Shown: in pieces, positions 2,588-36,236 of the stretch
Layout: the number at the start of each line of letters is the position of its first letter
Numbering within the stretch: the stretch's first letter is position 1
Assembly (NCBI GenBank): GCA_017548045.1
Contig: JAFYNR010000054.1
Span: 1 to 52,312 of the forward strand
Direction: 5' to 3'
Source of the DNA: Clostridia bacterium
Lineage (GTDB): Bacteria > Bacillota > Clostridia > Oscillospirales > Acutalibacteraceae
DNA: 52,312 nt
The notes under the pieces: model-generated
Seen by the model: the letters and a program-made list of their open reading frames with translations, nothing else
Database searches by the model: none
What the model was told of the DNA's origin: nothing
Program-made: the position numbers and the translations under genes

Positions 2588-2740
2588 ATGTCAAAGAACA
2601 ATTCAGTAGTTCCTCAGGCAAGAGCCGCTCTTGACCAGTTCAAGATGGAAGCTGCAAGAGAAGTAGGCGTTAACCTTAAGCAGGGTTACAACGGCGACCT
2701 CACTTCAAAGGAAGCAGGTTCATTAGAACATCTATGTTGA
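2588..2740 (+). pseudogene. Alpha/beta-type SASP, N-terminal fragment (split by prophage)
   Basis: After a good ribosome binding site (AAGGGG, 2573-2578) and ATG 2588, 45 codons match an alpha/beta-type small acid-soluble spore protein. They include the region around the GPR germination-protease cleavage site (EAAREVGVNL, B. subtilis SspA has EIASEFGVNL) and end in SKEAGS. The conserved family continuation GSVGG is missing. Five prophage-encoded codons (LEHLC) and a stop follow. The missing C-terminal half lies at 36180-36236 in the correct phase. Alpha/beta SASPs coat forespore DNA and protect it from UV and heat. The present 50-residue product lacks the second helix and should not bind DNA. 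No sigma-G promoter could be assigned with confidence in the 170 bp upstream. Confidence 0.93.
2703..2740. other. attL of the prophage (core TTCA 2719-2722)
   Basis: The host SASP sequence ends in GGTTCA and phage sequence continues TTAGAACATC. The four bases TTCA are shared with attR at 36176-36179. The phage half-site TTAGAACATCTATGTT (2723-2738) is the near-inverse of the phage half-site at attR. The centre of this dyad falls on the dinucleotide TC (2720-2721), as expected for a large serine recombinase crossover. The exact cut is inferred. Confidence 0.85.
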
Positions 2741-2760
2741 AGGTAATAGATATAAAAATT

Positions 2761-4392
2761 TTACACTTTCAATTTAACATCAAGCTCAATTGCTGGATTG
2801 TTCCAATTGCTTTTTTTGTTGGAGGATTGTACCCGCTGCGGCTTTTCTCTGTAATAATCAATCCTTTCAATGCAAGCCTTTAACAGCTCATTTTTTAAAA
2901 CTGCTTCTGCGGCGGGATCTTTCAGCGTAATAATGGCATCCTTAAAGGTTTTAATTTTTTCTTTGTAATCAATTGGGGCGGGTTGCGATTCATAAGCCTT
3001 GCGCAGCGCTTGTTTAACATCTTCTTTTTCTTTCAACAGTTTTTTGTTAAGCTGTTTAAAAATCTCTGCGGGCATTCTTTGCGAGGGGTCGGGGTGCGCT
3101 TGCTGTTCCCATTGTGTCAGCTCTTTTGCTTCCAGCTCTTTCAATTTCTTTTCAAGTGTCTTTATTAGCTGAGCATGCAGCTTGCTTGAATCGCTTTCAT
3201 CGTTTTTTATGCAAATTTCAAAATCTTCGATGCTATGTTCAAGGGTTTGGCAAACAAGGTCACTTATTTCAGCATAAGTGCATGACCCTGCGCCGCACCT
3301 CGCTTGATCTATGCAGGAGAATCGGGGCGCGCATTTTTCGTTACCTTGTTTATCTCGGAAATATTTTAATACCATTACTTTGCCGCAGTTACGGCAATAT
3401 AAAAGCGTTGCAAATGGGTTGCGGAGTTTCGTGGTTGGTTTTGTTCGGGGGTTGTTTCCGATGCGGTTTTGAACTCTTTCAAAAAGCTCAGGGGATATAA
3501 TGCCGTTGTGCTTACCTTCATATACAAGCCGATTTTCAGCATTTCCTTGCGGGCGGGTTTTCTTGAATTTGCCATCTTCAACGATAGTTATTGTGGGTCG
3601 CCAGTTTCCTTTAACTTTGCCGATATAGTGAATATTTTTCAACATTTCTTTAAGTGTGGTTGCTGACCATTGTTCACCTTTTGGCGGCTTAATTCCCAGC
3701 TCATCAAGGCGATAGCAAATTGACATTCTTCCCATTCCCTGATTGCCGTACATATCAAAAATCATCCTGACAACATTTGCCTCATCGGGGTTTTCTTTAA
3801 GTGTGGGATATTCTTTTTTGCCTTCTTTCACCTTGATTTTTTCATATCCATAAGGCGGCACAGATGCAATATAATTTCCTTGACTTAGTGAAATATCCCT
3901 GCCCCTTTTTTGAATTTTTTTATAGTAATTTAAATAATCGTTGCCCTTTTTCAATTCAGCTTCAAAAGCGTTCCAGTCATCTTCTTCGTGAAGGTCGTAC
4001 AGTCTTTCGCTGAATCTGTCGGCAGTGATAATATATGTATTTGTATGTTTCAGCAGCTTCATTATTCTGCCGATATCCTCTAAATCGCCGCGGGTTAATC
4101 GTTGCGGCTCTACAATTTTTACCGCTTTGTATTTGGGTGATTCGATTAAGCGCAAAACCTTGTTAATTTCGGGGCGTTCTTTGATTGTTTCACCTGATAC
4201 AATTTCCCTGAATCGGTTTTCTTCGGGCACTAATGCGCCCAAATGCTTTATATCCCATTCGTCAAGAATAGCCTCATGCTTTGCAAGAATTTCCTCAACC
4301 GTCAATAATGGATCATCGGATTGACTTTTTCGCAGATAGTCAATAATTTCATAGGGTTTGAAAAGCTCCGCATAATTATAAAAACGATACAT
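2761..4392 (-). CDS. Large serine recombinase (phage integrase/excisionase)
   Basis: This 543-residue protein has the order typical of large serine integrases. The N-terminal catalytic domain carries YLRKS, with the nucleophile probably Ser23, and QRLTR near residue 98. A recombinase domain follows (about 165-290, ASVPPYGYEK onward). Next comes a zinc beta-ribbon (CRNCGKV near residue 333 paired with later Cys in SCIDQARCGAGSC), and then a charged coiled-coil tail (about 395-500). It cuts both att sites at a central dinucleotide and joins them through 5'-phosphoserine links. The stop codon lies 20 bp from attL, the usual place for the enzyme that made the insertion. Start ATG 4392 has a run of A/G upstream (AAAAGGATG). 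Excision would need a directionality factor, not identified here. Confidence 0.95.
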   Translation of the reverse strand: MYRFYNYAELFKPYEIIDYLRKSQSDDPLLTVEEILAKHEAILDEWDIKHLGALVPEENRFREIVSGETIKERPEINKVLRLIESPKYKAVKIVEPQRLTRGDLEDIGRIMKLLKHTNTYIITADRFSERLYDLHEEDDWNAFEAELKKGNDYLNYYKKIQKRGRDISLSQGNYIASVPPYGYEKIKVKEGKKEYPTLKENPDEANVVRMIFDMYGNQGMGRMSICYRLDELGIKPPKGEQWSATTLKEMLKNIHYIGKVKGNWRPTITIVEDGKFKKTRPQGNAENRLVYEGKHNGIISPELFERVQNRIGNNPRTKPTTKLRNPFATLLYCRNCGKVMVLKYFRDKQGNEKCAPRFSCIDQARCGAGSCTYAEISDLVCQTLEHSIEDFEICIKNDESDSSKLHAQLIKTLEKKLKELEAKELTQWEQQAHPDPSQRMPAEIFKQLNKKLLKEKEDVKQALRKAYESQPAPIDYKEKIKTFKDAIITLKDPAAEAVLKNELLKACIERIDYYREKPQRVQSSNKKSNWNNPAIELDVKLKV

Positions 4393-4463
4393 AAAAACAT
4401 CCTTTTCAAAATCTTTGATGTGTTCGACAATTTTTAGTTTTTTGTGTCAACGCCTTTGTGTTA

Positions 4464-4904
4464 TTATTTTGATAACATTTCCCTTTGCTCTGCAAGGCGT
4501 TCCTCATACATTTGCTTTATATCTGTTATGCGTATTTCGCAATCTTTTCGCACATCGGCAATTCTTACCTCGCAAAGTGCCTTTATATCTTCGTTTCTTG
4601 TTTCGTGAAATTTTGTTATTTCGGCAATTTGATTTTCGTATGATTCTTTAAGCGCTAAGGTTGCGTTTGTGTCAATTTCTTGTTTTTTGTCAAAACCTAC
4701 TGCATCATTCGGGTTGCCGCCCATTGATAATATAAGCTTCATAATTGTTAAAAATCCTGAATTTTTAAGGTTTTTGCCTGCGCAGATATTCCTTATAGTT
4801 GAAACAGGAATACAGCTGACTTGTGCCATGCTTTCATATGTATAATTACCAGCCTTTTTTAATGCGATAATATAATCTCTTGTTTTTTCAAGCAAAACAT
4901 CCAT
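4464..4904 (-). CDS. XRE-like helix-turn-helix protein with coiled-coil tail
   Basis: This 146-residue protein has two parts. Residues 1-65 resemble an XRE helix-turn-helix (YESMAQVSCIPVSTIRNICAG is split over the second and third helices). Residues 75-146 form a long charged coiled coil with repeated E-x-R-I-x-D-I steps (RIADVRKDCEIRITDIKQ). It is encoded just upstream of the serine recombinase on the same strand with a 71-bp gap, so the two are probably cotranscribed. It may regulate integration or partner with the recombinase, but its function is unknown. No membrane segment is seen. Confidence 0.7.
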   Translation of the reverse strand: MDVLLEKTRDYIIALKKAGNYTYESMAQVSCIPVSTIRNICAGKNLKNSGFLTIMKLILSMGGNPNDAVGFDKKQEIDTNATLALKESYENQIAEITKFHETRNEDIKALCEVRIADVRKDCEIRITDIKQMYEERLAEQREMLSK

Positions 4905-5047
4905 TTTTTATCACTTCCATATAAAATTTGATACATTTACCGCAAAGTTTGATTACCTAAAAATCAAAATTTGAGCATTGAATTTTAGTTTGAATTATTT
5001 TACAATTTGACCAACGAAACGCCGATTGCGAAAGGAAGGTTTTACCC

Positions 5048-5194
5048 ATGCCGAACGAAAAAGAATATATTGCCGAAATCAACAGCCTTTTAAACCTTGC
5101 GGATTTGGAGCTTATTGATTTTATATATCAGCTTTTGCAACAGAGCGTTTTCGAATCAATCACCCTTTCAGAAACGCATCAACAACCTGCTTAA
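5048..5194 (+). CDS. Small protein (48 aa) convergent to the repressor
   Basis: ATG 5048 follows GGAAGG (5033-5038). The product is acidic and helical (LLNLADLELIDFIYQLLQQ) and resembles short proteins found beside XRE repressors in Firmicutes phages and conjugative elements. The last 35 bp overlap the end of the repressor gene on the other strand. Function unknown; expression is supported only by the ribosome binding site and family resemblance. Confidence 0.5.
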   Translation: MPNEKEYIAEINSLLNLADLELIDFIYQLLQQSVFESITLSETHQQPA

Positions 5195-5543
5195 TGCTTG
5201 CAAGCTGTTCAGGGTTTAATTTGTTGATGCCTTCAATTAAATTTGCAAATTCTTTATCGCTCCGCATCCTTACTGTTAATTCAGCAAGGGTGCTGTTTTT
5301 TTGCTGCATTTCTCTGTGTTCCGCTGTTTTATCCTCAATTAAATCGCTTTTTAGAATTCCGAAATATTGCGCAAGCTTTTCGATTTTGTCTATGCGCGGA
5401 AACTTTTTGCCTTTTAGCCATTCGTTAAATGTTGGAGCAGAAACGCCAACAACCGCAGCCATTTCTTTTTGGTTTTTTCCTGAACGCTCCATATAATATT
5501 TAAGGTTTTTAGCAAAAACATCTTTTGACCATTCGGCTTTCAT
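5160..5543 (-). CDS. CI-like XRE repressor
   Basis: This 127-residue protein carries an N-terminal XRE helix-turn-helix (about 10-62: NLKYYMERSGKNQKEMAAVV, then SAPTFNEWLKGKKFP) and a short helical C-terminal part. It has no LexA-like autocleavage domain, so induction is probably not by simple RecA-driven self-cleavage. It is divergent from a Cro-like gene across a 168-bp control region with repeated ATTAGCT elements. ATG 5543 has GGAGGCG at the right distance. The likely role is maintaining lysogeny by repressing the rightward early promoter. Confidence 0.85.
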   Translation of the reverse strand: MKAEWSKDVFAKNLKYYMERSGKNQKEMAAVVGVSAPTFNEWLKGKKFPRIDKIEKLAQYFGILKSDLIEDKTAEHREMQQKNSTLAELTVRMRSDKEFANLIEGINKLNPEQLASIKQVVDAFLKG

Positions 5544-5570
5544 TTAATCGCCTCCATGAGTTTTGGATAA

Positions 5571-5685
5571 ATTTTACACCTTATTAGCTAAAAAGTAAAT
5601 AGATTTAGCAAAAAATTTGCCAAAAGCTATTGACAAAATTTTCTTGAAATAGTATTATGTGTGTGTCGATTAGCTTAAAGCTAAT
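5571..5685. promoter_or_regulatory. Divergent repressor/Cro control region with operators
   Basis: Rightward promoter: TTGACA (5630-5635), 17 bp, TATTAT (5653-5658), serving the Cro-like gene. Leftward promoter: TTTACT (minus strand, 5594-5599), 17 bp, TAAAAT (5571-5576), serving the repressor. The palindrome ATTAGCTTAAAGCTAAT (5669-5685) has perfect 8-bp arms and sits just downstream of the rightward -10. A half-site ATTAGCTA (5583-5590) lies between the leftward -35 and -10. The same palindrome recurs at 5907-5923. These look like CI/Cro operators. Confidence 0.75.
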
Positions 5686-5711
5686 AGCGAACGATGAAAG
5701 GTGGTGCAAAT

Positions 5712-5903
5712 ATGCCTCAGATCACATTGAAAGCCGCAAGGGTGAACGCTGGGCTTACTCAGTCGGCGGCAGCGGAAAAACTTAATGTATCAATCAGTAC
5801 GGTTAAAAGTTGGGAAAAGGGCAAGACCTTTCCGAAACAGCCGCAGATTGAACAGCTTTGCGAAATTTACGGTGTATCTTATGACAATATTTTTTTTAAT
5901 TAA
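5712..5903 (+). CDS. Cro-like XRE protein
   Basis: This 63-residue protein is nearly all XRE domain (ARVNAGLTQSAAAEKLNVS, then TVKSWEKGKTFPKQPQIEQL). ATG 5712 is preferred over the in-frame ATG 5694 because AAAGGTGG (5697-5704) is correctly spaced before it. It is the first rightward gene and is divergent from the repressor, the place of a Cro or antirepressor-type regulator. Copies of the operator palindrome lie on both sides of the gene. Confidence 0.8.
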   Translation: MPQITLKAARVNAGLTQSAAAEKLNVSISTVKSWEKGKTFPKQPQIEQLCEIYGVSYDNIFFN

Positions 5904-5906
5904 ACG

Positions 5907-5923
5907 ATTAGCTTAAAGCTAAT
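5907..5923. promoter_or_regulatory. Second operator palindrome
   Basis: ATTAGCTTAAAGCTAAT again, identical over 17 bp (19 with the preceding CG) to the copy at 5669-5685. It begins 3 bp after the Cro-like stop and ends 18 bp before the next start. Such a downstream operator could block elongation or mark a second control point. Confidence 0.7.
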
Positions 5924-5941
5924 TAATGGGAGGCGGTTTGT

Positions 5942-6106
5942 ATGGATTCATACAACACAACAACATTTAATTTCCCGAATGCAATTGTAAGAGTGCATCG
6001 CCCTGAGCTTACGGATCAGGAACGCAGCAAGCGAATGAAGGCGATTCACAAAGCCTCAGCCGACTTGCTGAAAGAAGTTGAAAAAAGAAAAACAGAAAGG
6101 AATTGA
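5942..6106 (+). CDS. Small early phage protein (54 aa)
   Basis: ATG 5942 has GGGAGG (5928-5933) upstream. The basic, helical product (ERSKRMKAIHKASADLL) has no recognised domain. It is the first gene after the second operator and is followed 5 bp later by another small gene, so it belongs to the early operon. Function unknown. Confidence 0.55.
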   Translation: MDSYNTTTFNFPNAIVRVHRPELTDQERSKRMKAIHKASADLLKEVEKRKTERN

Positions 6107-6111
6107 GAACA

Positions 6112-6300
6112 ATGAAAAAAATTAAAGGTTTTATTAATTTGGCCGTCTTAGCTGCCCCAGCTATCGGCTTTTTTGTATGCTGCGCAGCTGTAACCTGTAT
6201 GCAGGCGGGCGAGCCTTTTGCGGGCAAGTTAATCGGCGGCCTTATTGTAATGGCCATTTTGCCCGCTGTTGCCTTTTTCGGAGGGCTTGCGAATGTTTGA
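6112..6300 (+). CDS. Small membrane protein (62 aa)
   Basis: ATG 6112 has AAAGGA upstream. Two hydrophobic segments (about residues 7-29 and 40-60) predict a two-pass membrane hairpin. It lies in the early region rather than beside the amidase, so a classical holin role is not suggested. It may act in superinfection exclusion or membrane recruitment, but no family is recognised. Confidence 0.55.
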   Translation: MKKIKGFINLAVLAAPAIGFFVCCAAVTCMQAGEPFAGKLIGGLIVMAILPAVAFFGGLANV

Positions 6301-6382
6301 AAAATCACATGAGTTAAGAGATATGATGCTTTGGGCGGGCTTTGTTTTTGGCGTTCTTTGCGCTGGCGCTGCCCTTATTTAA
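6293..6382 (+). CDS. Very small membrane protein (29 aa)
   Basis: ATG 6293 overlaps the previous stop and has GGAGGG (6280-6285) upstream. The product is a short charged N-terminus plus one hydrophobic helix (LWAGFVFGVLCAGAALI). The overlap and strong ribosome binding site support translation, but the length makes this tentative. Confidence 0.4.
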   Translation: MFEKSHELRDMMLWAGFVFGVLCAGAALI

Positions 6383-6394
6383 CGGAGGATCAAA

Positions 6395-6736
6395 ATGGAT
6401 AAAACAAGATTGTTAACCGTAATTGAAGAACTCGGCGAGGCAATACAGCAGTATAAAGCTGCGCGCGAGGATAGCAATGCCGAAATTGAATATTTGAGGC
6501 ATGAGCTGAAAGAACATCAAAGCATTATTGTTGACCTTGAAAAAAAGCTTAATTATGAAGTTGAAAACAAACGGCGAAGGCTTGAAAAATTCACGCCTTG
6601 CATTGCTTGCAAAAGTTTTGATGTTGTTGACGGCGTAAGGAAATGCTGTAATTTTGGGTTGCCTTTTCCTGATGGCACAATACAGCCTGAATTGTTCGGC
6701 TGCAATTATGCTGTTGAACGGGGTACGCAATTATGA
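6395..6736 (+). CDS. Coiled-coil protein with Cys cluster (113 aa)
   Basis: ATG 6395 follows CGGAGG. Residues 1-65 form a coiled coil. Residues 66-105 hold CIAC, a CC pair and a final Cys, which look like a small metal-binding knuckle. Its end overlaps the next start by 4 bp, showing tight translational coupling in the early operon. Function unknown. Confidence 0.6.
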   Translation: MDKTRLLTVIEELGEAIQQYKAAREDSNAEIEYLRHELKEHQSIIVDLEKKLNYEVENKRRRLEKFTPCIACKSFDVVDGVRKCCNFGLPFPDGTIQPELFGCNYAVERGTQL

Positions 6737-6936
6737 GTAAAAAAATTAAGCGCATTAACGCGCTGCCTGTATGCAGCGCAACATTGAGAGAAAAATGCGC
6801 AATACATAATTTTTGTGAAAATGCTTGGTGCATAGATGGTTGCCCCATTTATAAACGGGGAGAGCCTTGCCGATGTGCTGAATATATGGAATCAGGCCGC
6901 GGCTGCCCGCACTTCCGAAAGGCGGTTGATACATAA
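6733..6936 (+). CDS. Cys-rich small protein (67 aa)
   Basis: Ten Cys in 67 residues, spaced as C..C..C..C..C..C.C..C, with His, suggest one or two zinc sites. It overlaps the previous gene by ATGA and the next by 1 bp. No known family is recognised; similar short Cys-rich proteins are common in clostridial phage early regions. Confidence 0.6.
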   Translation: MSKKIKRINALPVCSATLREKCAIHNFCENAWCIDGCPIYKRGEPCRCAEYMESGRGCPHFRKAVDT

Positions 6937-7262
6937 TGCAGGATTTGCAAAAGAGTTTAAATAGCCTGTTTGATTTGCTGCACGCTGCATTAACGCAAAT
7001 CGGCAAACGCGGCGAGGAATATGCCCTTGCTGAGGCCGATTATAGAACAGAGTTATCAAAGCGGATGCTTGAACGAAAAACGGAGGGCATTGCAGCAACG
7101 ATTTTAAGCGATGTTTGCCGCGGTGAGCCTGATATTGCAAACCTTAAATTTCAGCGCGATTGCGCTGAGGCAAAATATAAGGCAGCATTAGAGGCCGTGA
7201 ATGTTTACAAGCTTAAAATTAAAAGCCTTGAGGCACAAATTGAAAGGGAATGGAGGGGCTGA
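6936..7262 (+). CDS. Helical early phage protein (108 aa)
   Basis: Almost entirely helical and charged, with two blocks (5-50 and 70-105) that could form an antiparallel coiled coil. It resembles helical proteins seen upstream of SSB and recombination genes in Gram-positive phages, but I cannot name a family. It starts at the last base of the previous stop and lies in the early operon. Confidence 0.6.
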   Translation: MQDLQKSLNSLFDLLHAALTQIGKRGEEYALAEADYRTELSKRMLERKTEGIAATILSDVCRGEPDIANLKFQRDCAEAKYKAALEAVNVYKLKIKSLEAQIEREWRG

Positions 7263-7264
7263 AA

Positions 7265-7480
7265 ATGGATGCTGATATTATTTTACCCGCCGTTTTTGTT
7301 CCGCTTGGGTTTTTGCTTTTTTATGAGGCTGGCAAACGCAAATTGCTTGAATATACATTAAAACGGATTTTTGGAATTTTGGATGCTGCGAATAAAACCG
7401 CTGCGGAAGATGTTGCAGGCCTGCCTGAATCAGCAAAACAGGCTTTGCTTGATAGCTTTATGAAAGGGGCGTACAAATGA
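7265..7480 (+). CDS. Small membrane-anchored protein (71 aa)
   Basis: ATG 7265 is preferred over ATG 7250 because GGAGGGG (7253-7259) lies just before it. A single N-terminal hydrophobic segment (about 4-22) precedes a helical cytoplasmic part. The end overlaps the next start by 4 bp. Function unknown. Confidence 0.55.
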   Translation: MDADIILPAVFVPLGFLLFYEAGKRKLLEYTLKRIFGILDAANKTAAEDVAGLPESAKQALLDSFMKGAYK

Positions 7481-7848
7481 CAAAAAAGCGTTTTGTTAAA
7501 TTGCTTATGTCTTATGGCGTGCAGAGAAATGAGGCGCAGCAGATTGCCCGCGATTTCAACGGCCAAAACATTCCATATAAAACAGCTTACCCAGCTGCAA
7601 CATTCTGTTTTGCATCGCGCTTACGCGTTCGGGTGCTGGTAAAGGGCTTTAAAGAATTATCCGAGGCAATTCGCAGCAGGGTAATTCCCGCGCTTGACAA
7701 ACTAAAAGAGGCTGTTGCTGCTGCTTATGAGGCTTGTGATGAGGCCAAAAAATCCCCCCGCCCTGATTACGGGCAAACCCCAAAAACAACAAGAAAACCC
7801 TATATAAAACCTATTACAAAAAGCAGATCGAGAGAAGGGAAAAAGTAA
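7477..7848 (+). CDS. Basic early phage protein (123 aa)
   Basis: A basic protein with a helical first half and a disordered Lys/Arg/Pro-rich tail. The motif of successive short helices followed by NIPYKTAYP resembles small phage proteins of unknown function. It overlaps its neighbours by 4 bp and 1 bp. The tail suggests nucleic-acid contact, which is inference only. Confidence 0.55.
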   Translation: MTKKRFVKLLMSYGVQRNEAQQIARDFNGQNIPYKTAYPAATFCFASRLRVRVLVKGFKELSEAIRSRVIPALDKLKEAVAAAYEACDEAKKSPRPDYGQTPKTTRKPYIKPITKSRSREGKK

Positions 7849-8033
7849 TGAGGCTTTTGTTTTATAAAATAAAGCGATTGTTTAAATTGCACAGAGCAGA
7901 AAAGATACTTAAAAAAACGCTTAAAGAAATTGAGGCGGGTAAAATAACCCCGAATGAAGCCCGCTGGCGTTTCAGGTTGCCTGCCGTAGAAACAATATTA
8001 TTAAATCTTGAAAGCGAGGAAAACAATGCCTGA
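7848..8033 (+). CDS. Small basic protein (61 aa)
   Basis: ATG 7848 overlaps the previous stop; GAAGGGAAAA lies upstream. The protein is a Lys/Arg-rich helical peptide with a conserved-looking GKITPNEARWRF stretch. Its end overlaps the next start at 8026. No family recognised. Confidence 0.5.
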   Translation: MRLLFYKIKRLFKLHRAEKILKKTLKEIEAGKITPNEARWRFRLPAVETILLNLESEENNA

Positions 8034-8373
8034 ATACATAGAGCGTGAAGCGTTATGCGAATATTTTCAGAAAAAATTTGAGTATTACAAAACAGAGAGT
8101 GAAAAAGCGGTGTGCGGCGGATATGTGTTTGATGAAAAAATGCAATATGCGGCGATTGTTGCAAAGCATTTTCTTGACACAGCAAAAAAATCCCCTGCCG
8201 CCGATGTGGTTGAAATTGATGTTATAAAACAATGGCTTTATAAGATTGCTATTAACAATGTTAATGTTCAGTTTGATGGTGATTTTTCAAAGGCTTGCGA
8301 GGAAATTATATCACGGCTTGACGGCCTGCGAGATTTTCAAAAAAAGTTGGAAGAAGGGAGCTTAAAACTATGA
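8026..8373 (+). CDS. Phage protein of the EYIEREAL...PAADVVE type (115 aa)
   Basis: ATG 8026 (after GAGGAAA) gives MPEYIEREAL, and PAADVVEIDV lies mid-protein. Both stretches typify a widespread phage protein family in Clostridia that is found in early regions and has no known function. The DNA upstream is in frame but lacks a ribosome binding site, so the shorter start was chosen. It is likely part of the operon leading into SSB. Confidence 0.65.
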   Translation: MPEYIEREALCEYFQKKFEYYKTESEKAVCGGYVFDEKMQYAAIVAKHFLDTAKKSPAADVVEIDVIKQWLYKIAINNVNVQFDGDFSKACEEIISRLDGLRDFQKKLEEGSLKL

Positions 8374-8486
8374 TTAAATATTATCTTTTTTGTATTCATT
8401 GGCTTTGGAAAAATCGCAATTGGGATGATACAAGGCAAAAATTTAAAATGATGCAAAGGGAGTGGAAAAAGCGAAATGTTAAATAA
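8370..8486 (+). CDS. Very small protein (38 aa) before SSB
   Basis: ATG 8370 overlaps the previous stop and has GAAGGGAGC upstream. The product is aromatic and basic (YYLFCIHWLWKNRNWDD). It overlaps the SSB start at 8476, so translation could couple into SSB. Tentative because of length. Confidence 0.4.
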   Translation: MIKYYLFCIHWLWKNRNWDDTRQKFKMMQREWKKRNVK

Positions 8487-8886
8487 CTGTGTTTTTATGG
8501 GTAGAATCGCGCAGGATTTGGAGCTTAGAAAAACAACAAGCAATATTTCCGTTTGTGCTTTTACGCTGGCCGTACAGCGCTCATATAAAAAAGAGGGCGA
8601 AGATTATAAAACGGATTGGATTGATTGCATTGCTTTCAGGAATACAGCCGATTTTATAAGCAGATGTTTCCGCAAGGGTGAGCTTATCGCCATAAGGGGT
8701 GAAATGCAAACCCGCACTTATACAGATAAGAACGGCAACAAACGAAAGGCCACGGAGCTTATTATTGAAAAAGCAAGCTTTTGCGGCGGCAAAAAGAGTG
8801 ATACAGCTGAGGCCGCAGATATGCAACAGGGCTTTCAGGATGTACCCGAATTTACCGAAATAAATGAGGATGATTTGCCGTTTTAG
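8476..8886 (+). CDS. ssb: Single-stranded DNA-binding protein
   Basis: This 136-residue protein has the bacterial SSB OB-fold over residues 1-105 (NNCVFMGRIAQDLELRKT, then DWIDCIAFRNTADFI, then GELIAIRGEMQTRTY). A short linker leads to the acidic tip DDLPF. That tip is the protein-interaction tail through which SSB recruits replication and repair enzymes. It should coat single-stranded phage DNA during replication. It ends the rightward early operon, right before the structured non-coding segment. RecT/Erf-type annealing proteins are not seen nearby. Confidence 0.95.
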   Translation: MLNNCVFMGRIAQDLELRKTTSNISVCAFTLAVQRSYKKEGEDYKTDWIDCIAFRNTADFISRCFRKGELIAIRGEMQTRTYTDKNGNKRKATELIIEKASFCGGKKSDTAEAADMQQGFQDVPEFTEINEDDLPF

Positions 8887-9130
8887 CCTCTGCGGGTTTT
8901 TATCAGTAAACTACAAGTAATGCGACAAACTAATGCTTAAACCCGCGCTGTTGCGCTTTGTTGGTAATCCTAAGGAATCACCAACACAAAAAAGCTGGAA
9001 ATTAAAAACCCGCTCGGAATGCAGTGTTAAGGCATTCGGGCGGGCGAGAGCTGGAAACAAAACCGTATTAAATTCGGTGGGTTTTTGGCCGTAAACTACA
9101 AGTAATACACAAAAATAACCTTTTAAAATG
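8887..9130. other. Structured non-coding segment with direct repeats
   Basis: A 244-bp gene-free stretch between SSB and the convergent tyrosine recombinase. GTAAACTACAAGTAAT occurs at 8906-8921 and 9091-9106, each preceded by GGGTTTTT and four variable bases. Between them lie four hairpins: GCGC/GCGC (8945-8956), GTTGGT/ACCAAC (8960-8985), a 13-bp stem with one bulge (9009-9022 with 9032-9044) and ACCG/CGGT followed by GGGTTTTT (9062-9086). AGCTGGAAA occurs at 8993-9001 and 9049-9057, on both sides of the long stem. It could be a small RNA ending in a terminator, or recombinase arm sites. Neither is proven. Confidence 0.6.
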
Positions 9131-10153: not shown

Positions 10154-10296
10154 AATATTCCCCCTGCTTGTTATGTCTATATAACAATACAAGTGTATCA
10201 AATATGCAACAAGCTGGCAAACATTAGCGCACCAAAAAATGAAACAGCTGTTCTATAATTAACACAAGCCCCGATAAATAAAGGAGGTTGTTAATT

Positions 10297-10979: not shown

Positions 10980-10981
10980 TT

Positions 10982-11982: not shown

Positions 11983-11988
11983 TTTGCG

Positions 11989-13623: not shown

Positions 13624-13638
13624 AGGAGCTTAAAGGAA

Positions 13639-14852: not shown

Positions 14853-14864
14853 AGGAGCTTAAAA

Positions 14865-26515: not shown

Positions 26516-26526
26516 TTTAATTACTG

Positions 26527-26560: not shown

Positions 26561-26574
26561 TTGAGGTGGTTAAA

Positions 26575-27217: not shown

Positions 27218-27218
27218 T

Positions 27219-28021: not shown

Positions 28022-28026
28022 AAATA

Positions 28027-28671: not shown

Positions 28672-28705
28672 ACAACAATAAATAAAGCAAAAGGAGCTTA
28701 TTGCT

Positions 28706-29244: not shown

Positions 29245-29259
29245 AAGCGTGGTGAGCTT

Positions 29260-31509
29260 ATGTCAAACGATAATAATTTTGGTGCTGGTTTTAGCATTGA
29301 TATAAGCAATTTTAAGGCTGGCCTTGCCGCTGCAAATAAACTGATACGCGAAAGCGAGGCAGAATTTAAAGCGGCTGCGGCTGGTATGGATGATTGGAGC
29401 AAATCGCAGGAAGGCCTTGAAAAGCGCGTTAACAGTTTGAATAAAATTGTTGATGTTCAATCGGAAAAGGTGAAGGCGCTCCAACGCGAAAAAGAGCGCA
29501 TTATTTCAACAATGCAGGCAGAAGGCAAAAGCCATGAGGAAATTGCCCGCGCTGTTGATGATGTTAACGGCCGAATTATCAAAGAGAGCAATACCCTTGA
29601 CAGGTACAAAAAAGACCTTGACAAAGCCGAGGGCGCTCTTGATAAATTTAACGCTGAGCAGGAAGATGCGGCCGATGCTGCAAACGATGCAGAGCGCAAG
29701 CTTAAAGATGTTGGCGAGGCCGCTGAGGATGCGGGCGATGGCTTTACAGTTGCAAAGGGTGCGATTGCTGGCTTTATATCAAACGGGCTTTCGGCCTTAG
29801 TGTCAAAGGTGGGCGAAACAATCAGCTCTATTGCTGGGCTTGCTGATGAAACCCGCGAATACAGGAACGAAATGGCAAAGCTTGATACAAGCTTTGAAAC
29901 GGCTGGCCTTTCGGCTGAATCTGCGCAAACAACCTTTAAGGATTTGTATGGCATTATGGCCGATGAGGGCGCTGCAACAGAGGCGGCGCAGCAGCTTGCA
30001 AAAATTTCGGATAATCAAAAGGAACTTGATGCCAATACCCGAATTTTAACGGGCGTATGGGCTGAATATGGTAACAGCATACCCCTTGAAGGCCTTGCGG
30101 AAGGTATTGCCGCAACAAGCAACATGGGAAGTGTGCAGGGCGTGCTTGCCGATGCCCTTGAATGGCAAGGCGTTAACCTTGATGACTTCAACGAAAAGCT
30201 CGGTAAAATGTCAACAGAGGAAGAACGCGCTGCATATATTCAGGAAACCCTTACGGATTTATATGGCGAATCTGCTGACAAATTCCGCGAAAACAACGAA
30301 AGTGTTATTGCGGCAAATGAAGCGCAGGCCGATTATAATGACAAAATGGCCGAGCTGGGTGAAAAGGTTGAGCCTATAACTACGGCTGTTAAAGAGGGCT
30401 TTACGCAAATACTTGATAGCGTGCTTGCGCTTGTTGAGGATGTTGATACGGAGGCAATAAGCGAATCTATTGCGGGCGGCTTTAAAACTTTTGTTGATGA
30501 GGTTATACCCGCAATTAAAGACGGCTTTCAGTGGGTGCTTGATAATAAGGATGGGCTTATTGCTGGCGTTGCTGGTATTGGCGGGGCTTTTGTTGCGTTT
30601 AAGGCGGCAAGTTTGGTTGATACGGCTGTAAGTGCCTTTAAGGCCTTTAAGCTTGCGAATGAGGGCGCAACGGTTGCGCAATGGCTTATGAATGCGGCAA
30701 TGAACGCAAACCCCATAATGCTTATTGTAACGCTTGTGGGCGGCCTTATTGCTGCGCTGGTAACATTTGTTGCAACAAATGAGGATGCCCGCGCAAAATT
30801 TGTTGAAATTTGGGAAAACATAAAAGCCGCGTTTGTTTCTTTCGGTGAAAAAATCAAAGAAACATTCGACAAGGTGAAAAAATGGTTTTCTGAGCTGGGC
30901 GATAAGGCGGCCGAAATTTGGGGAAATCTCAAACAGGGCGCGGCTGATGCGTGGGAAGGTATTAAAAATATCTTTTCAAAAGTTGCATCGTTTTTCGGCG
31001 ATATATTCGGCGATGCTTGGAGCAGAGTAAAAAACATTTTTTCAACAGGCGGCAAAATTTTTGACGGTATAAAAGAGGGTATTTCATCAACCTTCACAAA
31101 TATCGTTAACAGACTTATCCGCGGAATCAATAAAATTGTTGCTGTACCGTTTAATGCGATCAATTCGGCGCTTACCAAAATTAAAAATGTTGAAATTGCA
31201 AATTATAAACCGTTTGCAGATAAAATTTCAACAATATCCGTTCCCGAAATCCCTGAGCTTGCTGAGGGTGGTATTTTAACAAGGGCAACCCATGTTATTG
31301 CGGGTGAGGCTGGCGCTGAGGCCGTGCTGCCCCTTGAAAAAAATACGGGCTGGATGGATATGTTTGCCGAAAAGCTTGCGAGCAAAATGCCCGCTGCTGG
31401 CAATGTATATCAAACAAATCATTTTTCGCAGGCGCATAGCCGTTATGAGCTTTATAAAACAAAGCAGCAAACGCTTGCGGCGCTGCGGCTTGCAACAAAA
31501 GGGGGTTAA
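29260..31509 (+). CDS. Tape measure protein
   Basis: 749 residues. The N-terminus (FSIDISNFKAGLAAANKLIR) is typical of phage tape measures. Long coiled coil occupies about 15-160. Hydrophobic segments appear near 170-190, 440-460 and 490-510 (IMLIVTLVGGLIAALVTFVA), and the C-terminus has MPAAGNVYQTNHF. It sets tail length and may form a channel through the membrane during DNA injection. Tail length could be roughly 100 nm from helix length, a rough inference. Preceded by gpG/GT and followed by Dit, the standard order. Confidence 0.95.
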   Translation: MSNDNNFGAGFSIDISNFKAGLAAANKLIRESEAEFKAAAAGMDDWSKSQEGLEKRVNSLNKIVDVQSEKVKALQREKERIISTMQAEGKSHEEIARAVDDVNGRIIKESNTLDRYKKDLDKAEGALDKFNAEQEDAADAANDAERKLKDVGEAAEDAGDGFTVAKGAIAGFISNGLSALVSKVGETISSIAGLADETREYRNEMAKLDTSFETAGLSAESAQTTFKDLYGIMADEGAATEAAQQLAKISDNQKELDANTRILTGVWAEYGNSIPLEGLAEGIAATSNMGSVQGVLADALEWQGVNLDDFNEKLGKMSTEEERAAYIQETLTDLYGESADKFRENNESVIAANEAQADYNDKMAELGEKVEPITTAVKEGFTQILDSVLALVEDVDTEAISESIAGGFKTFVDEVIPAIKDGFQWVLDNKDGLIAGVAGIGGAFVAFKAASLVDTAVSAFKAFKLANEGATVAQWLMNAAMNANPIMLIVTLVGGLIAALVTFVATNEDARAKFVEIWENIKAAFVSFGEKIKETFDKVKKWFSELGDKAAEIWGNLKQGAADAWEGIKNIFSKVASFFGDIFGDAWSRVKNIFSTGGKIFDGIKEGISSTFTNIVNRLIRGINKIVAVPFNAINSALTKIKNVEIANYKPFADKISTISVPEIPELAEGGILTRATHVIAGEAGAEAVLPLEKNTGWMDMFAEKLASKMPAAGNVYQTNHFSQAHSRYELYKTKQQTLAALRLATKGG

Positions 31510-31514
31510 TTCTT

Positions 31515-32348
31515 GTGTTTATTCTTAAAAATGAAGCGGGCGCAGAATTAAAGCTAATAGGCAACCCCCTTTTTGATTTGTCACATATTGAAGGCTTAAC
31601 AAAATATGCAGGCAGCTTAGCAAGCAGTACCTCAGCCAGCGCAGACGGTGACACGGTTACAAATGCGCAGGCGCTCCCCCGTGATATTGTTATGGATTTA
31701 ACAATAAAAGACGGGGTAAATGTTGAAAACGCCCTTGATGTAATTAAGGGCGTTGTTAAGCCGAAAAAGAAATTAACGCTTATATGGAATGATAAAACGA
31801 TTGAGGGCATTGCTTCCGATATGGATGCGCCCCGATTTTCCGAAAAGGTAGTTTTACAAATTTCGTTGCATTGTTCAAATCCGTGGTGGAAAAATGTGCA
31901 AAACATTATCACGGAAATTGCTGAATCAATCCCGCTTGCGCATTTTGCAATGTCATTTTTAATTGATGATGAGGGAAATGTTGAAAGCAAGCCGCTGGGT
32001 GAAATAGATTTAAACCGCACAAAATCATTTAATAATGATGGCGATGTTGCTGTTGGTATGGATATATCAATTATTGCCGTGGGTGAAGTTGTTAACCCCT
32101 CATTGCGCCGCAATAACGGCGATTTTATCGGCTGTAATGTAACATTGCAGGAAGGTGACGAAATCAAAATTACAACCCATAAGGGCAATAAAACAATTAC
32201 CCTGAACGGTGAAAATGCAATGAGCAAAATAATGCGCGGCAGCAGCTTTATGCAGCTTGATACGGGCGAGCAGGAATTTACACTTGCGGCAGATAGCGGC
32301 GCAAGCTTTTGCTATTTTACTGTATCATACTCGAAAATGTATGTATAA
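31515..32348 (+). CDS. Distal tail protein (Dit)
   Basis: 277 residues, GTG start at 31515 (GGGGG upstream). N-terminus FILKNEAGAELKLIGNPLF and the beta-sandwich pattern with CSNPWWKN mid-protein are typical of siphovirus Dit proteins. A hexamer links tail tube and baseplate. TTG and GTG starts occur in several genes of this phage. Confidence 0.85.
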   Translation: MFILKNEAGAELKLIGNPLFDLSHIEGLTKYAGSLASSTSASADGDTVTNAQALPRDIVMDLTIKDGVNVENALDVIKGVVKPKKKLTLIWNDKTIEGIASDMDAPRFSEKVVLQISLHCSNPWWKNVQNIITEIAESIPLAHFAMSFLIDDEGNVESKPLGEIDLNRTKSFNNDGDVAVGMDISIIAVGEVVNPSLRRNNGDFIGCNVTLQEGDEIKITTHKGNKTITLNGENAMSKIMRGSSFMQLDTGEQEFTLAADSGASFCYFTVSYSKMYV

Positions 32349-32359
32349 GGAGCGGAGGC

Positions 32360-33472
32360 ATGGCAAGGTTTGAATATATCGAAATACGAAATGCGCAGCT
32401 TGAACTCTTAGGCATTATTGATGATGCAAACAGCATGATTTGGCACAGCGTTTATTATGGCATAGGCGATTTTGATATTGAAATTGCCAAAACAAAAAAG
32501 GCGCTGGAACTTTTGCGCAGGGGTAATTTTGTTACCCGTTACGATAGCGATGAAATCGGCATTATTGAAAGCGTTGAAACGCTGACCAATGAGGCGCAAG
32601 AAAAGGTATTGACCGCAAGCGGGCGCTTTGCAAAGGTTTTATTAAATCGCCGCTTGATTTATCAGTTAAGTGGATCACAAAACAAAGCAACCGTTTTAAG
32701 CGGAAATGTGCAAACCGCCGTTCGCGGGCTTGTAAGCAATAACGCCATTAATTGCCCGTTTGACAGCAAGCGCAATATTTCACTTTTGGAGCTGGGCGCA
32801 GCTGATAGCTCAATAAATGAAATTATTGTTGATGAAAACGGCAAGGCGGCAAGCAAGCAAGTGAGTTATCAAAACTTGCAGGAATATACTGATGAATTGT
32901 TGCAGGAATATGAGATTGGCGCAAAGGTTATTTTTGCCGATTTGGGAAAATTGCAATATGTCTGTTATAAAGGCCGCGATTTGTCAAGCGATATTATTTT
33001 TGGCGTTGATTTTGATAACCTGATTAATATATCAGTAAGCGAAAATGATGCGGCTTTGCGTACCACGGCATTAATCGGCGGCGCTGGTGAAGGCCTTGAA
33101 CGCTTTTACTCGCTTATAGGCGGGGAAATGCAGGGGCTTGACCGCCGCGAGGTATTTATTGATGATTCAAGTATTGCCCGTACCTATAAGGATGCGGCAG
33201 AAACGGAGCAGGAATATACTGCGGCCGTTTACAAGGAAATGCTTGACACAGACGGCGCGCAAAAGCTTGCGGATATGAAAGCAACGCAGCTTTTTTCTTG
33301 CGCCTTAGACCTTAACAACAGCCCTTATATTTTCGGCGTTCATTACGATGTGGGCGATGTTGTAATGCTTTCGGAAAATGAGCTTGATATATTTGCCCCC
33401 GTGCGCATTTTGGAAATAACAGAGGTACGCGATTCGGCGGGGTATTCTGTTGATGGCGTGATTGGAGTGTAA
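32360..33472 (+). CDS. Tail-associated baseplate protein (Gp37-like)
   Basis: 370 residues from ATG 32360 (GGAGCGGAGG upstream). The start RFEYIEIRNAQLELLGIIDD and the following GDFDIEIAKTKK match the siphovirus ReqiPepy6 Gp37-like family, which has a Tal-like hub fold. It should form the tail tip below Dit. It lacks a long C-terminal lysozyme or fibre extension. Confidence 0.82.
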   Translation: MARFEYIEIRNAQLELLGIIDDANSMIWHSVYYGIGDFDIEIAKTKKALELLRRGNFVTRYDSDEIGIIESVETLTNEAQEKVLTASGRFAKVLLNRRLIYQLSGSQNKATVLSGNVQTAVRGLVSNNAINCPFDSKRNISLLELGAADSSINEIIVDENGKAASKQVSYQNLQEYTDELLQEYEIGAKVIFADLGKLQYVCYKGRDLSSDIIFGVDFDNLINISVSENDAALRTTALIGGAGEGLERFYSLIGGEMQGLDRREVFIDDSSIARTYKDAAETEQEYTAAVYKEMLDTDGAQKLADMKATQLFSCALDLNNSPYIFGVHYDVGDVVMLSENELDIFAPVRILEITEVRDSAGYSVDGVIGV

Positions 33473-33475
33473 AAA

Positions 33476-33802
33476 ATGGAGTTTAACGATAATGCACTTT
33501 TCATTTTAACCCTTGTTCTTGGCGTTCTTACAATTATTAATTTTGTTTCAGGCCAAAAAGATAAGGCCAGCAAAAGCGGCAAGGGCAACGGGGAAGTGTT
33601 AAGCACTTTGATATCAATTCAGGATAAGCTTGTTGACCTGAAAAGCGATACAAACGAAATTAAAAACAAGCAAAACGAGCAGGGGCTTGAAATTGCAACC
33701 CTGAAAGAGAGTGCGCGACAGTTTGAAGAATGGAAAAAAGCGGCTGAAAAGCGCATACATATTCTTGAAATAACTATTGCAGGAGGCGAAAGCAATGAAT
33801 AA
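33476..33802 (+). CDS. Small membrane-anchored coiled-coil protein (108 aa)
   Basis: A single N-terminal transmembrane helix (FILTLVLGVLTIINFV) is followed by a Lys/Gly linker and coiled coil. It overlaps the holin start by 8 bp. It resembles XhlA-like lysis accessory proteins in design, so a role in lysis is plausible. Confidence 0.6.
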   Translation: MEFNDNALFILTLVLGVLTIINFVSGQKDKASKSGKGNGEVLSTLISIQDKLVDLKSDTNEIKNKQNEQGLEIATLKESARQFEEWKKAAEKRIHILEITIAGGESNE

Positions 33803-34157
33803 TGAATATATCAATGAAATTCTTGGCGTGATAATCACGGCGTTTGTTATTCCTCTTATTACTTATTTGAGCAATGAAGCAATTAAGCTGCTTAAAGAAA
33901 AGGTGGCTGAGCTTAAAATTAAGAAGGCTGAAAGCGTGGCGCAGGCGGCCGTTGCGGAAGTGTCACAAACTTATGTTGATCCCCTCAAAAAGGCGGGAGC
34001 TTTCACGGATGAAAACGCGCTTATTGCGTTCAACAAAGCTTTTGAACTTGGCAAACAGCTGATTAATGAAAGCACGCAGGAGCTTATTGCGGAAATACAT
34101 AATAATTTTGATAGCTGGCTGCAAGCGCAGATTGAAACGGCTGTTAAAAACAAGTAA
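33795..34157 (+). CDS. Phage holin, LLH-like family
   Basis: 120 residues from ATG 33795 with AGGAGG upstream. One N-terminal transmembrane helix (ILGVIITAFVIPLITYL) precedes long helical segments including QTYVDPLKKAGAF, a hallmark of LLH-type holins. It should permeabilise the membrane to release the amidase at lysis. The lysin is about 17 kb away rather than adjacent. Confidence 0.82.
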   Translation: MNNEYINEILGVIITAFVIPLITYLSNEAIKLLKEKVAELKIKKAESVAQAAVAEVSQTYVDPLKKAGAFTDENALIAFNKAFELGKQLINESTQELIAEIHNNFDSWLQAQIETAVKNK

Positions 34158-34172
34158 CAGGAGGGCAAAGCT

Positions 34173-35945
34173 ATGGCACAGAAAAGCGGCTTTTTTAATT
34201 CGCTGCTTGTAGATGGCGAATATGACCGCGCAATTAATGCAAACGACTTCCGCAATTATATGGCGGCAGTTGTTTCAACGGGCGTGCGCCGTTCGTATTT
34301 GAATGATTTGAGGGTTACGGCTGCGGGCGGTATGGCTTTATCAATCGGCGCGGGTTTTGCTGTTGTTGAAGGCGCATATTTTCTCAATGATACGGCTTTC
34401 AATTCTTTCACAGTGCCGACAGCACCCACGGGCGAGCGTTCCCGCATTGACCGCGTTGTAATTCGCCTTGATGATTCTGTAAGCGTGCGCGAGGTTACAT
34501 TTGCATACAAGCAAGGAACGCCTGCGGCTGAGCCTGTTGCGCCTGCGCTTGTTCGCAGCGGTGATATATACGAAATCGCGCTTGCGGATATTGTTGTTGC
34601 TCCGATGGTAACAGAAATTACGCAGGATAAAATTACAGATCAGCGCCCGAATGAGGCGTTATGCGGCTGGGTAAGCACGCCCCTCGGTTATGAGGGCTTA
34701 ATTGCAAAGGTTGATACAGAAATTGAAGAATGGTTTGCGGATAAGCGTGATAAACTTGCCAATGTAACACTTTTTAAGCGTTATATTTGGAGTACAACAT
34801 TGACCGCCGCAGCTGCAAGCGTAACATTTGATATCCCGCAGTATGAGGCGGGCAGCACTTCAATTATTGATGTGTTTGTTAACGGCAATATTGAGCTTGA
34901 AGGCAGTGATTTTACACTGAACGGCAGCACAATTATTTTTTCAGGCACTAAAAATGCAGGCACGGAAATTAATGTTATTTGCTGGAAAAGTATTGACGGC
35001 ACAGGCCTCGGCTCTGTAAGCGATGAGGTAACGCTTTTGCAAAACAAAGTTGCAACCCTTGAAGGCGCTGCAACCTATACATACAGATGCACGGGCGCAA
35101 ATGACAATGTAAGCCTTTCACAGATTGCGCAGGCCTTTTATAGCGGCTATTATGTTGCAGAGGATTGCACCCCCGCAGCGATTGCCTTCTTGGAGGCGCT
35201 GGGCGGCAATGCAAGGCTTGCAGCATTAGGCAACCGCACGCAAATGCTTGTTCGCGTTGTTGGTGCTTGCGGTGTTACTGCTCCGTATTCAGGCGATGGC
35301 TCAGCAACAAGCCGCTTTAAGTGGTTTAATTTGGGCTTATCGGAGCATACGGATAAAAGGCTGATTTTTGATTTTGCATACTGCGATCAGATTGAAATAC
35401 CTTTAAGCGGTGCAACGGGCAATATTGTTTTCTTTGGCACTGACCTTTTCATTAAAAATGTAAGTGTTAAGGCGCTGGGAACTGCAAGCGGCTGCGATTG
35501 CATTATTACAGATGGTGCGCTTAGCAATGGCGATGTTCATTTTGAAAATGCTCGCTTTTATGTTGAAACAACAGGCAAGGCGCAAATTGCTGTAAACGGC
35601 TGTTTTCGTGATTGCGAGGGCGTTGTTATAAGCACAAAAAATCACGCGCTTGCTTTTTCGCCTGAGAGTACCAGCTTAATAAGGCTTGACGGCGGCAAAT
35701 ATCTTGCATATGCAACAGGCACATATATCGGCGCAGTTATTTATATATATGCAAACCGCACAAACGGTGTTGTTTATGCAAACGGTGTTAATTGCCCCAC
35801 GGTTGAAAAAAGCGGATATAATCAAACCCTTTTAGCTGGGGGCTTTGCGGGTAAAGCGCTCATGTTCGGCATGATATCAACATTGCCGAAAGATGGCGAG
35901 TTTGTTGTTGACAGCAACCGAATCAATTTTAATAAGCCTCAGTAA
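34173..35945 (+). CDS. Tail fibre / receptor-binding protein (590 aa)
   Basis: The N-terminal 200 residues (GFFNSLLVDGEYDRAINAND, VEGAYFLND, TDQRPNEALCGWV) match the conserved base of many siphovirus fibre proteins. From about 270 the sequence becomes Gly/Ala-rich and beta-repetitive, with a C-terminal adhesin-like region. It probably binds the host surface polymer. It follows the holin and ends the late operon before a strong terminator. Confidence 0.75.
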   Translation: MAQKSGFFNSLLVDGEYDRAINANDFRNYMAAVVSTGVRRSYLNDLRVTAAGGMALSIGAGFAVVEGAYFLNDTAFNSFTVPTAPTGERSRIDRVVIRLDDSVSVREVTFAYKQGTPAAEPVAPALVRSGDIYEIALADIVVAPMVTEITQDKITDQRPNEALCGWVSTPLGYEGLIAKVDTEIEEWFADKRDKLANVTLFKRYIWSTTLTAAAASVTFDIPQYEAGSTSIIDVFVNGNIELEGSDFTLNGSTIIFSGTKNAGTEINVICWKSIDGTGLGSVSDEVTLLQNKVATLEGAATYTYRCTGANDNVSLSQIAQAFYSGYYVAEDCTPAAIAFLEALGGNARLAALGNRTQMLVRVVGACGVTAPYSGDGSATSRFKWFNLGLSEHTDKRLIFDFAYCDQIEIPLSGATGNIVFFGTDLFIKNVSVKALGTASGCDCIITDGALSNGDVHFENARFYVETTGKAQIAVNGCFRDCEGVVISTKNHALAFSPESTSLIRLDGGKYLAYATGTYIGAVIYIYANRTNGVVYANGVNCPTVEKSGYNQTLLAGGFAGKALMFGMISTLPKDGEFVVDSNRINFNKPQ

Positions 35946-35958
35946 TAATATGAATTTA

Positions 35959-35996
35959 AAAAGCGGGTGGCCTTTATGGGCTGCCCGCTTTTTTCT
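35959..35996 (+). terminator. Terminator of the prophage late operon
   Basis: AAGCGGG (35961-35967) with CCCGCTT (35984-35990), extended inward by GGCC/GGGC, followed by a T-rich run. Strong 11-12-bp stem; it insulates host DNA from the late operon. Confidence 0.85.
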
Positions 35997-36030
35997 TTTG
36001 CTCAGCGAGTTAAAACCCGCCTTATTATCA

Positions 36031-36067
36031 TTAACGCACGGAAATGAGCGTTAAGTGCGTTTTTTTA
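36031..36067 (+). terminator. Second terminator-like element with alternative hairpins
   Basis: TTAACGC (36031-36037) can pair with GCGTTAA (36048-36054), or ACGCAC with GTGCGT (ending 36060) before a seven-T run. The two pairings exclude each other. The second, ending in T7, looks like a terminator. Confidence 0.55.
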
Positions 36068-36141
36068 CTAAGTTAACGCACATTTTTGCGATTTTTTCAC
36101 AATAACTTAGTTAAAACTTGCAATTTTAACTAAGTTAACGC
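36067..36141. repeat. Repeats near attR: 14-bp inverted repeat and ACTAAGTTAACGC direct repeats
   Basis: TAACTTAGTTAAAA (36103-36116) and TTTTAACTAAGTTA (36124-36137) form a perfect 14-bp inverted repeat with a 7-nt spacer. ACTAAGTTAACGC occurs at 36067-36079 and 36129-36141. These lie 35 to 110 bp from attR. They may be protein-binding sites for excision control or a bidirectional terminator. Confidence 0.65.
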
Positions 36142-36157
36142 GAACTTCCAATTATAT

Positions 36158-36196
36158 CCAACATCAGTGTGCTAATTCAGTAGGCGGCCAGATGGT
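36158..36196. other. attR of the prophage (core TTCA 36176-36179)
   Basis: Phage half-site AACATCAGTGTGCTAA (36160-36175), then the shared TTCA, then host SASP codons GTAGGCGGC. The half-site is a 12-of-16 inverse of the phage half-site at attL. The host side resumes in the codon phase of the 5' SASP fragment. Confidence 0.85.
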
Positions 36197-36236
36197 TAAG
36201 AAGATGATCGAAGCTTACGAAAACGGTATGAAATAA
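36180..36236 (+). pseudogene. Alpha/beta-type SASP, C-terminal fragment
   Basis: Eighteen codons, VGGQMVKKMIEAYENGMK, then TAA. VGG-x-hydrophobic-x-KK/R-hydrophobic is the hallmark second motif of alpha/beta SASPs (SspA: VGGEITKRLV). No start codon or ribosome binding site precedes it, so it is untranslated while the prophage is present. Joined to 2588-2722 it gives a 63-residue SASP of normal length. Confidence 0.93.

Follow-up and report, generated by a model that had tools for sequence, protein, structure and literature searches.

The stretch of DNA examined here (the window: 52,312 nucleotides of contig JAFYNR010000054.1, from a Clostridia bacterium of the family Acutalibacteraceae) contains a gene for an alpha/beta-type small acid-soluble spore protein (SASP) that is divided in two by a tailed prophage carrying a large serine recombinase (LSR). 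Judged from the sequence, the element interrupts the reading frame of a gene specific to sporulation, and excision would restore that frame exactly. The window sequence and its comparison with related genomes make it, in our view, very probable that LSR insertion in a SASP gene is recurrent in these Clostridia and that it is scarless and in principle reversible. As the genomes read, the integration, its attachment sites and the in-phase restoration on paper can all be followed, other LSR elements recur in SASP genes, and most of the carriers examined show no second intact alpha/beta-type SASP gene.

The interrupted SASP gene

The left half of the gene comprises codons 1-45 (MSKNNSVV...SKEAGS) and the right half codons 46-63 (VGGQMVKKMIEAYENGMK, at 36180-36233, with the stop codon at 36234-36236). 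An earlier note on this DNA had described an LSR prophage that interrupts a SASP gene and leaves the halves in phase, and on rereading the window sequence we found both halves, the 33,457-bp gap between them and the common TTCA just as it had given them. Joining the halves at this TTCA yields, again in agreement with that note, a 63-residue SASP with the frame kept. The Pfam SASP family (PF00269) matches the left half at 4e-18, and a whole-genome search gave 63.4 bits for this half and 29.3 bits for the right one, each above the cut-off. The joined protein is identical, residue for residue, to the intact SASP of four other species (G030, in both of its copies, G031, G012 and G018); assignment to the alpha/beta type is thus based both on the matches of the halves and on the identity of the joined protein with full-length matches in relatives. 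Compared with the genes of these four species, the joined gene shows 12-17 synonymous and 0 nonsynonymous codon differences, while the nonsynonymous differences number 1 against G003 and 6 against G015. In the lysogen the 5′ frame reads on to position 2740, giving a 50-residue product that ends in SLEHLC. The protein has the EVGV protease-site motif and the GSVGG motif of alpha/beta-type SASPs.

Attachment sites and the proposed exchange

When attP is rebuilt from the two prophage ends it forms an inverted repeat in which 18 of 25 positions match about the TC of the core, this score being the best of 7 centre positions tried. The score is equalled at 1 of 52,252 window positions; this sole equally good inverted repeat is at 49782, outside the prophage. 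By the same test attB itself has no such symmetry. The symmetry of attP about TC places the crossover at these two bases, which are the first two of the Ser45 codon. A chance in-frame joining was considered and ruled out, as the attP inverted repeat is rare in the window and the join gives a perfect gene.

The earlier note had also held that the GSVGG codons are strongly conserved and so offer a stable target in most spore-formers. Conservation held for the protein motif, but not for the DNA: of the genus's SASP copies other than the window's, 22 in number, 10 have TCA as the Ser45 codon, 6 AGC, 3 TCC and 3 TCT, which rules out a target conserved at the DNA level. Because the core TC is missing where AGC is used (6 of 22), some SASP genes would be no possible target, and with a SASP match in only 20 of the 45 genus genomes surveyed the notion of a stable target in most spore-formers was not supported. 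No tRNA attachment site was found in the window. Upstream of its SASP gene the window has a hydrogenase gene; in none of the relatives read does this gene adjoin SASP, and synteny was therefore drawn from the right flank only.

We propose that the LSR of a temperate tailed phage would join attP to an attB spanning codons 45/46 of the SASP gene, with strand exchange at the TC of the common TTCA. SASP genes are forespore genes and are silent during growth, and a vegetative cell should therefore bear no cost from the insertion. The reverse reaction, by the integrase with a putative directionality factor, would restore the exact gene. Since the lysogen chromosome encodes only a truncated SASP without the C-terminal part, full-length protein would come only from cells from which the phage has been excised; actual excision, the cell type in which it may take place and a dependence of the sporulating cell on it are inferences. 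In these Clostridia SASP genes are a recurrent address of LSR elements, reached by three distantly related LSRs at different codons (45, 53 and ∼58).

SASP genes across the genus

We searched 45 genomes of the genus, the window's own included, with PF00269. Twenty gave a SASP match and 25 gave none. An intact gene was found in 11 genomes, with two copies in G030; G012 and G014 are among the 11, the G014 copy having its first codons cut by a contig edge. Seven genomes have a split gene and no intact copy, the break being at codon 45 in the window's genome and at codon 53 in the other six (G004, G013, G019, G021, G022 and G026). G012 and G014 carry, in addition to the intact gene and elsewhere in the genome, a codon-53 5′ part but no LSR of the codon-53 type. 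Overall, no intact copy was found in 7 of the 9 genus genomes that carry a split gene, a count from which G033 was left out, because its match is cut off by the contig edge and a codon-53 LSR was not found there. G010 yielded only short 5′ SASP copies. The half comprising codons 46-63 was found standing alone only in the window's genome, although so short a piece could be missed by PF00269.

The nearest relative of the window by its neighbouring SpoVA protein is G004 (93%), which has the same right flank, with the SpoVA-type gene, and in which codons 45-46 are uninterrupted. The earlier note had suggested a search for further LSR phages at GSVGG codons. Other LSR elements do occur in SASP genes, but their breaks are at codons 53 and ∼58 and not at GSVGG.

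Other recombinases in SASP genes

In G004 a 5.2-kb element breaks the SASP gene two bases beyond codon 52, and on its far side lies the window's downstream gene. The LSR of this element, of 582 amino acids, is 21% identical to the window LSR. A full-length codon-53 LSR is present in 8 genus genomes; in two of these (G020, G029) a SASP 5′ part was not detected. Both codon-53 halves are on one contig only in G004 and G019. All six genus genomes that have the codon-53 SASP 5′ part together with its LSR lack an intact copy. Two downstream flanks were found in both states: one is intact in G003, G012 and G014 and occupied in G010 (there by a 57% relative), G026 and G013, and the other is intact in G030 and G018 and occupied in G021.

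The codon-53 LSRs terminate in the SASP tail, KKMIEAYENGMK, and the split SASP 5′ part terminates in a conserved tail of 32 residues, NKCPVRT...GHSKEITYEVALAV. Among eight LSR relatives read on viral contigs, two (L193, L195) have the SASP tail, while the integrases of L194, L196 and L197 themselves carry, judged by eye, a tail of the 32-residue type. The presence of both kinds of tail on integrases places attP within the integrase gene, at its 3′ end. As these loci read (L045:9588-15039 in G004; L127-L135; L204-L222), integration at codon 53 reciprocally exchanges the C-termini of integrase and SASP.

When 398 genomes of the family were searched, 24 of them gave a total of 25 LSR matches with E <= 1e-120. 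The SASP tail stands at the end of 21 of these 25 codon-53 LSR relatives, which were not chosen by tail although the query carries it, with at most three candidates per genome scored and tails judged by eye, the count covering integrase ends and not partner 5′ parts. A swap of the integrase and SASP C-termini on integration would account for this predominance. In a scan of named genomes a strict pattern detected the SASP tail in 69 of 80 LSR loci, a proportion biased by the use of the tail-derived KKMIEAYE as one search word.

A further PF00269 search covered 15 cellular genomes, together with 3 viral records, drawn from the LSR matches, of which 12 and 1, respectively, were matched. None of the 12 matched cellular genomes has a full-length alpha/beta-type SASP. 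In 11 of them the SASP 5′ part and the LSR are on the same strand of one contig, the contigs being paired by their length, 6.4 to 42.3 kb apart; the exception, G445, has only odd SASP fragments. Carriers of the codon-53 element include Flavonifractor sp. An10, Pseudoflavonifractor phocaeensis An858, Colidextribacter sp. OB.20 and Clostridiales bacterium NK3B98. Its cargo (L329, L330, L332 set) presumably consists of type I restriction-modification and relaxase-like genes in An10, and in NK3B98 of a large operon with an SMC-like ATPase that we take to be Wadjet-like. A further LSR of G445 (L327:12798-14576, 556 amino acids, 22-25% identical to the others) has its end immediately ahead of a degraded piece of SASP and is possibly a fourth LSR at a SASP gene; it is not counted among the three.

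The break near codon 58 is in a viral contig (L192, from IMG/VR), where the SASP 5′ part is followed by an LSR on the minus strand and a helix-turn-helix (HTH) gene. This is the gene arrangement of the window, and the L192 LSR is 44% identical to the window LSR. Relatives of the window LSR were sought in 200 genomes drawn from the family, and a scan of genome contigs with the window LSR found no relative.

Several further observations concern SASP copies elsewhere. The window's own genome holds an orphan, decayed codon-53 SASP 5′ part broken by stops (C19:71-235; L001, L048), followed by a gene that we take, from reading its sequence, to be TetR-like; no codon-53 LSR was found in this genome at E <= 1e-60. 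Across the genus the SASP gene occurs in several different neighbourhoods with flanks variously paired, as if SASP copies were recombination points; G030:C175 and G026, for example, have the upstream flank in common and not the downstream one. We also noted units of ∼300 bp in which the SASP upstream region and the first 26-28 codons are followed by a short tail of another kind and then by a terminator-like hairpin (G022:C28, G018:C26, G012:C67 and C80, G013:C2 and C13, G010:C7, and C45:1264-1559 of the window's genome), about six of them along one 74-kb contig of G022. Similar short SASP forms are present in Colidextribacter OB.20 (L325) and G445 (L324). The possibility that these 5′ copies are attL scars of another element was not supported, as they have hairpins of their own and no partner 3′ halves in the 45-genome search; they look like small paralogous genes (mini-SASP paralogues).

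Gene content of the prophage

From its genes the element looks like a complete tailed prophage. Of 20 prophage open reading frames (ORFs) scanned, 16 match a PHROG family and 4 match none, and together they cover lysogeny, replication, lysis, packaging, head and tail functions (Table 1). Neither the tape measure gene nor the last large ORF (34173-35945) has a Pfam match. The window LSR combines the Resolvase catalytic domain (PF00239) with the Recombinase domain (PF07508), and its gene ends 38 bp from the core. The terminase large subunit is 59% identical to that of the Butyrivibrio viruses Arian and Bo-Finn, whose genomes are 33.2-33.5 kb; these viruses are, however, absent from the best ten of 133 phage records matching the window LSR. 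The closest phage-record match of this LSR among those listed is Roseburia phage Jekyll (39%).

Table 1. Features of the window around and within the interrupted SASP gene.
Feature	Position	Strand	Evidence
SASP upstream region, common to aligned copies; promoter presumed	2477..2587	+	alignment of SASP copies
SASP gene 5′ part, codons 1-45	2588..2722	+	PF00269 4e-18; join comparison
attL core TTCA; TC (2720-2721) is the attP inverted-repeat centre	2719..2722		attP reconstruction
Prophage, 33,457 bp	2723..36179		junctions; gene content
LSR, 543 aa, the element's integrase	2761..4392	-	PF07508, PF00239; phrog_95
HTH repressor-type regulator	5160..5543	-	Pfam; PHROGs
HTH regulator, divergent from repressor	5694..5903	+	PHROGs
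Replication initiation protein	11296..11982	+	phrog_428
DnaC-like helicase loader	12361..13206	+	phrog_50
Phosphoadenosine phosphosulfate reductase-like gene, phage-borne	13639..14364		phrog_424
Endolysin	16994..17776	+	phrog_435
Terminase small subunit	20083..20778	+	phrog_4581
Terminase large subunit	21707..23362	+	Pfam; PHROGs; identity to Butyrivibrio viruses
Portal protein	23381..24583	+	phrog_12
Head maturation protease	24525..25241	+	phrog_80
Major capsid protein	25238..26515	+	Pfam; PHROGs
Major tail protein	28027..28671	+	phrog_88
Tail tape measure protein	29260..31509	+	PHROGs
Minor tail protein	32309..33472	+	phrog_538
attR core TTCA	36176..36179		junction comparison
SASP gene 3′ part, codons 46-63 and stop	36180..36236	+	PF00269; join comparison
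SpoVAC/SpoVAE-type spore membrane protein gene, directly downstream of SASP	36350..36790	+	PF03862; same neighbour in G004

Does the host keep needing the gene?

The known substrates of the protease GPR are SASPs. In the genus, GPR was found in 10 of the 11 genomes with an intact SASP gene, in 6 of the 7 split-only genomes and in 4 of the 25 without a SASP match (split-only against no match, p = 0.0014), and SpoVA in 11 of 11, 6 of 7 and 3 of 25, respectively, G010 and G033 being left out of these counts. Of the four genomes that have GPR but gave no SASP match, two (G020, G029) carry a codon-53 LSR ending in the SASP tail. Since both genes are kept in 6 of 7, the split-only genomes still look like those of spore formers, an observation that is compatible with restoration by excision and fits recent insertion as well. 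The codon-53 hybrids are open to their end in 17 of 18 genomes with such an LSR (the exception is G445) versus 1 of 3 without, a post hoc contrast in a small sample (p = 0.04). The three split copies without an LSR comprise two that are broken by stops (C19 of the window's genome and G012:C67) and one, G014:C3, that has no stop.

A number of observations weigh against recurrent, reversible insertion as we read it. The window-type LSR adjoins SASP in just one other locus, L192, and in that record, which has a single PF00269 match, the matching SASP 3′ part was not found. No SASP was seen in the stretches read beside the LSRs of G106 (59%, the nearest relative), of G134 and G191 (∼40%) and of the viral L064 and L065 (43%), and three viral LSRs 60% identical to that of L192 (L308-L310) also have no adjoining SASP and look like uncut phage. 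The window's host genome is a draft of 68 contigs that is 85.7% complete, and another SASP could be missing from it. Finally, pairs of species with SpoVA proteins 69-82% identical have codon-53 LSRs that are 97-99% identical. By this comparison the codon-53 insertions are recent or horizontally renewed, so that integrity of the gene is by itself no proof of its use.

Alternative explanations

The arrangement can be explained in ways that differ in what becomes of the spore. We give roughly even chances to plain disruption, in which lysogens form spores without this SASP or sporulate rarely, the cost is tolerated and the element gains from the SASP gene no more than a conserved place where it can integrate safely. 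The prophage is of an ordinary type, the codon-53 LSRs spread horizontally, and the 25 of 45 genus genomes without a SASP match suggest that SASP or sporulation is easily lost; however, GPR is kept about equally in split-only and intact genomes (6/7 and 10/11), and two of the three split copies without an LSR have acquired stops, G014:C3 being the one with none. Plain disruption is nonetheless likelier, in our judgement, than programmed excision in the spore line of the lysogen, a skin-like forespore switch by which SASP would be made, the circle packed in the spore and the phage re-integrated at germination. Integration needs the LSR alone. Such a switch would agree with the lack of an intact alpha/beta-type SASP in 7 of 9 split-gene genus genomes and in all 12 further matched cellular genomes, with the retention of GPR and SpoVA (each in 6 of 7 split-only genomes) and with the open codon-53 hybrids (17/18 with an LSR vs 1/3 without, p = 0.04). 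We nevertheless hold it to be rather unlikely, as the insertions are recent or renewed, so that retention may be mere lag, and as such elements are almost all in mother-cell genes, where their loss spares the germline (PMC6957869, PMC4191935).

It is quite improbable that another SASP, missed by PF00269 or unassembled, does the work and leaves the split without effect. The genomes are drafts, G012 and G014 have an intact gene beside the split copy, G030 has two intact genes, and 3 of the 15 further cellular genomes gave no SASP match, which indicates that pieces can be missed; yet no intact copy was detected by Pfam in G004 (97% complete) or G013 (95% complete), nor in the assemblies of the four named strains. 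A contig chimeric between two strains would be conceivable in a draft of 68 contigs, but it is hardly credible given one core at both junctions, a palindromic attP, the LSR beside attL and a perfect gene on joining.

Relation to known elements and implications

Several intervening elements are known in sporulation genes: SPbeta in spsM, skin in sigK, vfbin in spoVFB and vrin in spoVR (PMC6957869, PMC4191935), as well as gin in gerE and yin in yabG (PMC5595907, PMC10747680). The window element has in common with these a recombinase of its own, a split sporulation gene, a short common core and in-frame restoration on excision. Excision has been demonstrated for several of them, whereas the window element is known from sequence alone. 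Their host genes are almost all mother-cell genes (PMC6957869, PMC4191935), whereas the window's is SASP, a forespore gene; an element that is excised only in the mother cell is preserved in the genome of the spore (PMC4191935). Phage biology touches alpha/beta-type SASP in the forespore also through sspC of SPbeta, which is under SigG; SPbeta carries a whole SASP gene, however, whereas the window phage breaks one (PMC8270828). The LSR catalogue of Durrant et al. 2022 (PMC10083194) similarly has distant LSRs converging on one conserved gene, the examples in its available text being magnesium chelatase/protease, prolyl isomerase and competence genes and not SASP; the word "spore" has 0 occurrences in the main text, and SASP may still be in its database. 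Among the literature matches listed, at the level of titles and abstracts, no element inside a SASP gene was found, which is no proof of absence, nor among those listed any account of attP inside a serine integrase gene.

The known rule is that almost all these elements break mother-cell genes, in a genome that dies, so that excision never costs the element its place. The SASP gene breaks this rule because the forespore genome is inherited and excision there would alter the germline. Either such elements leave the spores of their hosts without DNA protection, or a germ-line cycle of excision and return exists, of which we found no description in the searchable literature. Through the codon-53 exchange of C-termini, the integrase itself could bear a mark of being integrated. 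That the SASP gene is a switch point for unrelated LSR elements, with excision in the forespore, a circle in the spore and re-integration on germination, we regard as unlikely; if true, protection of the spore's DNA would depend on the element's repeated departure from the chromosome and return to it.

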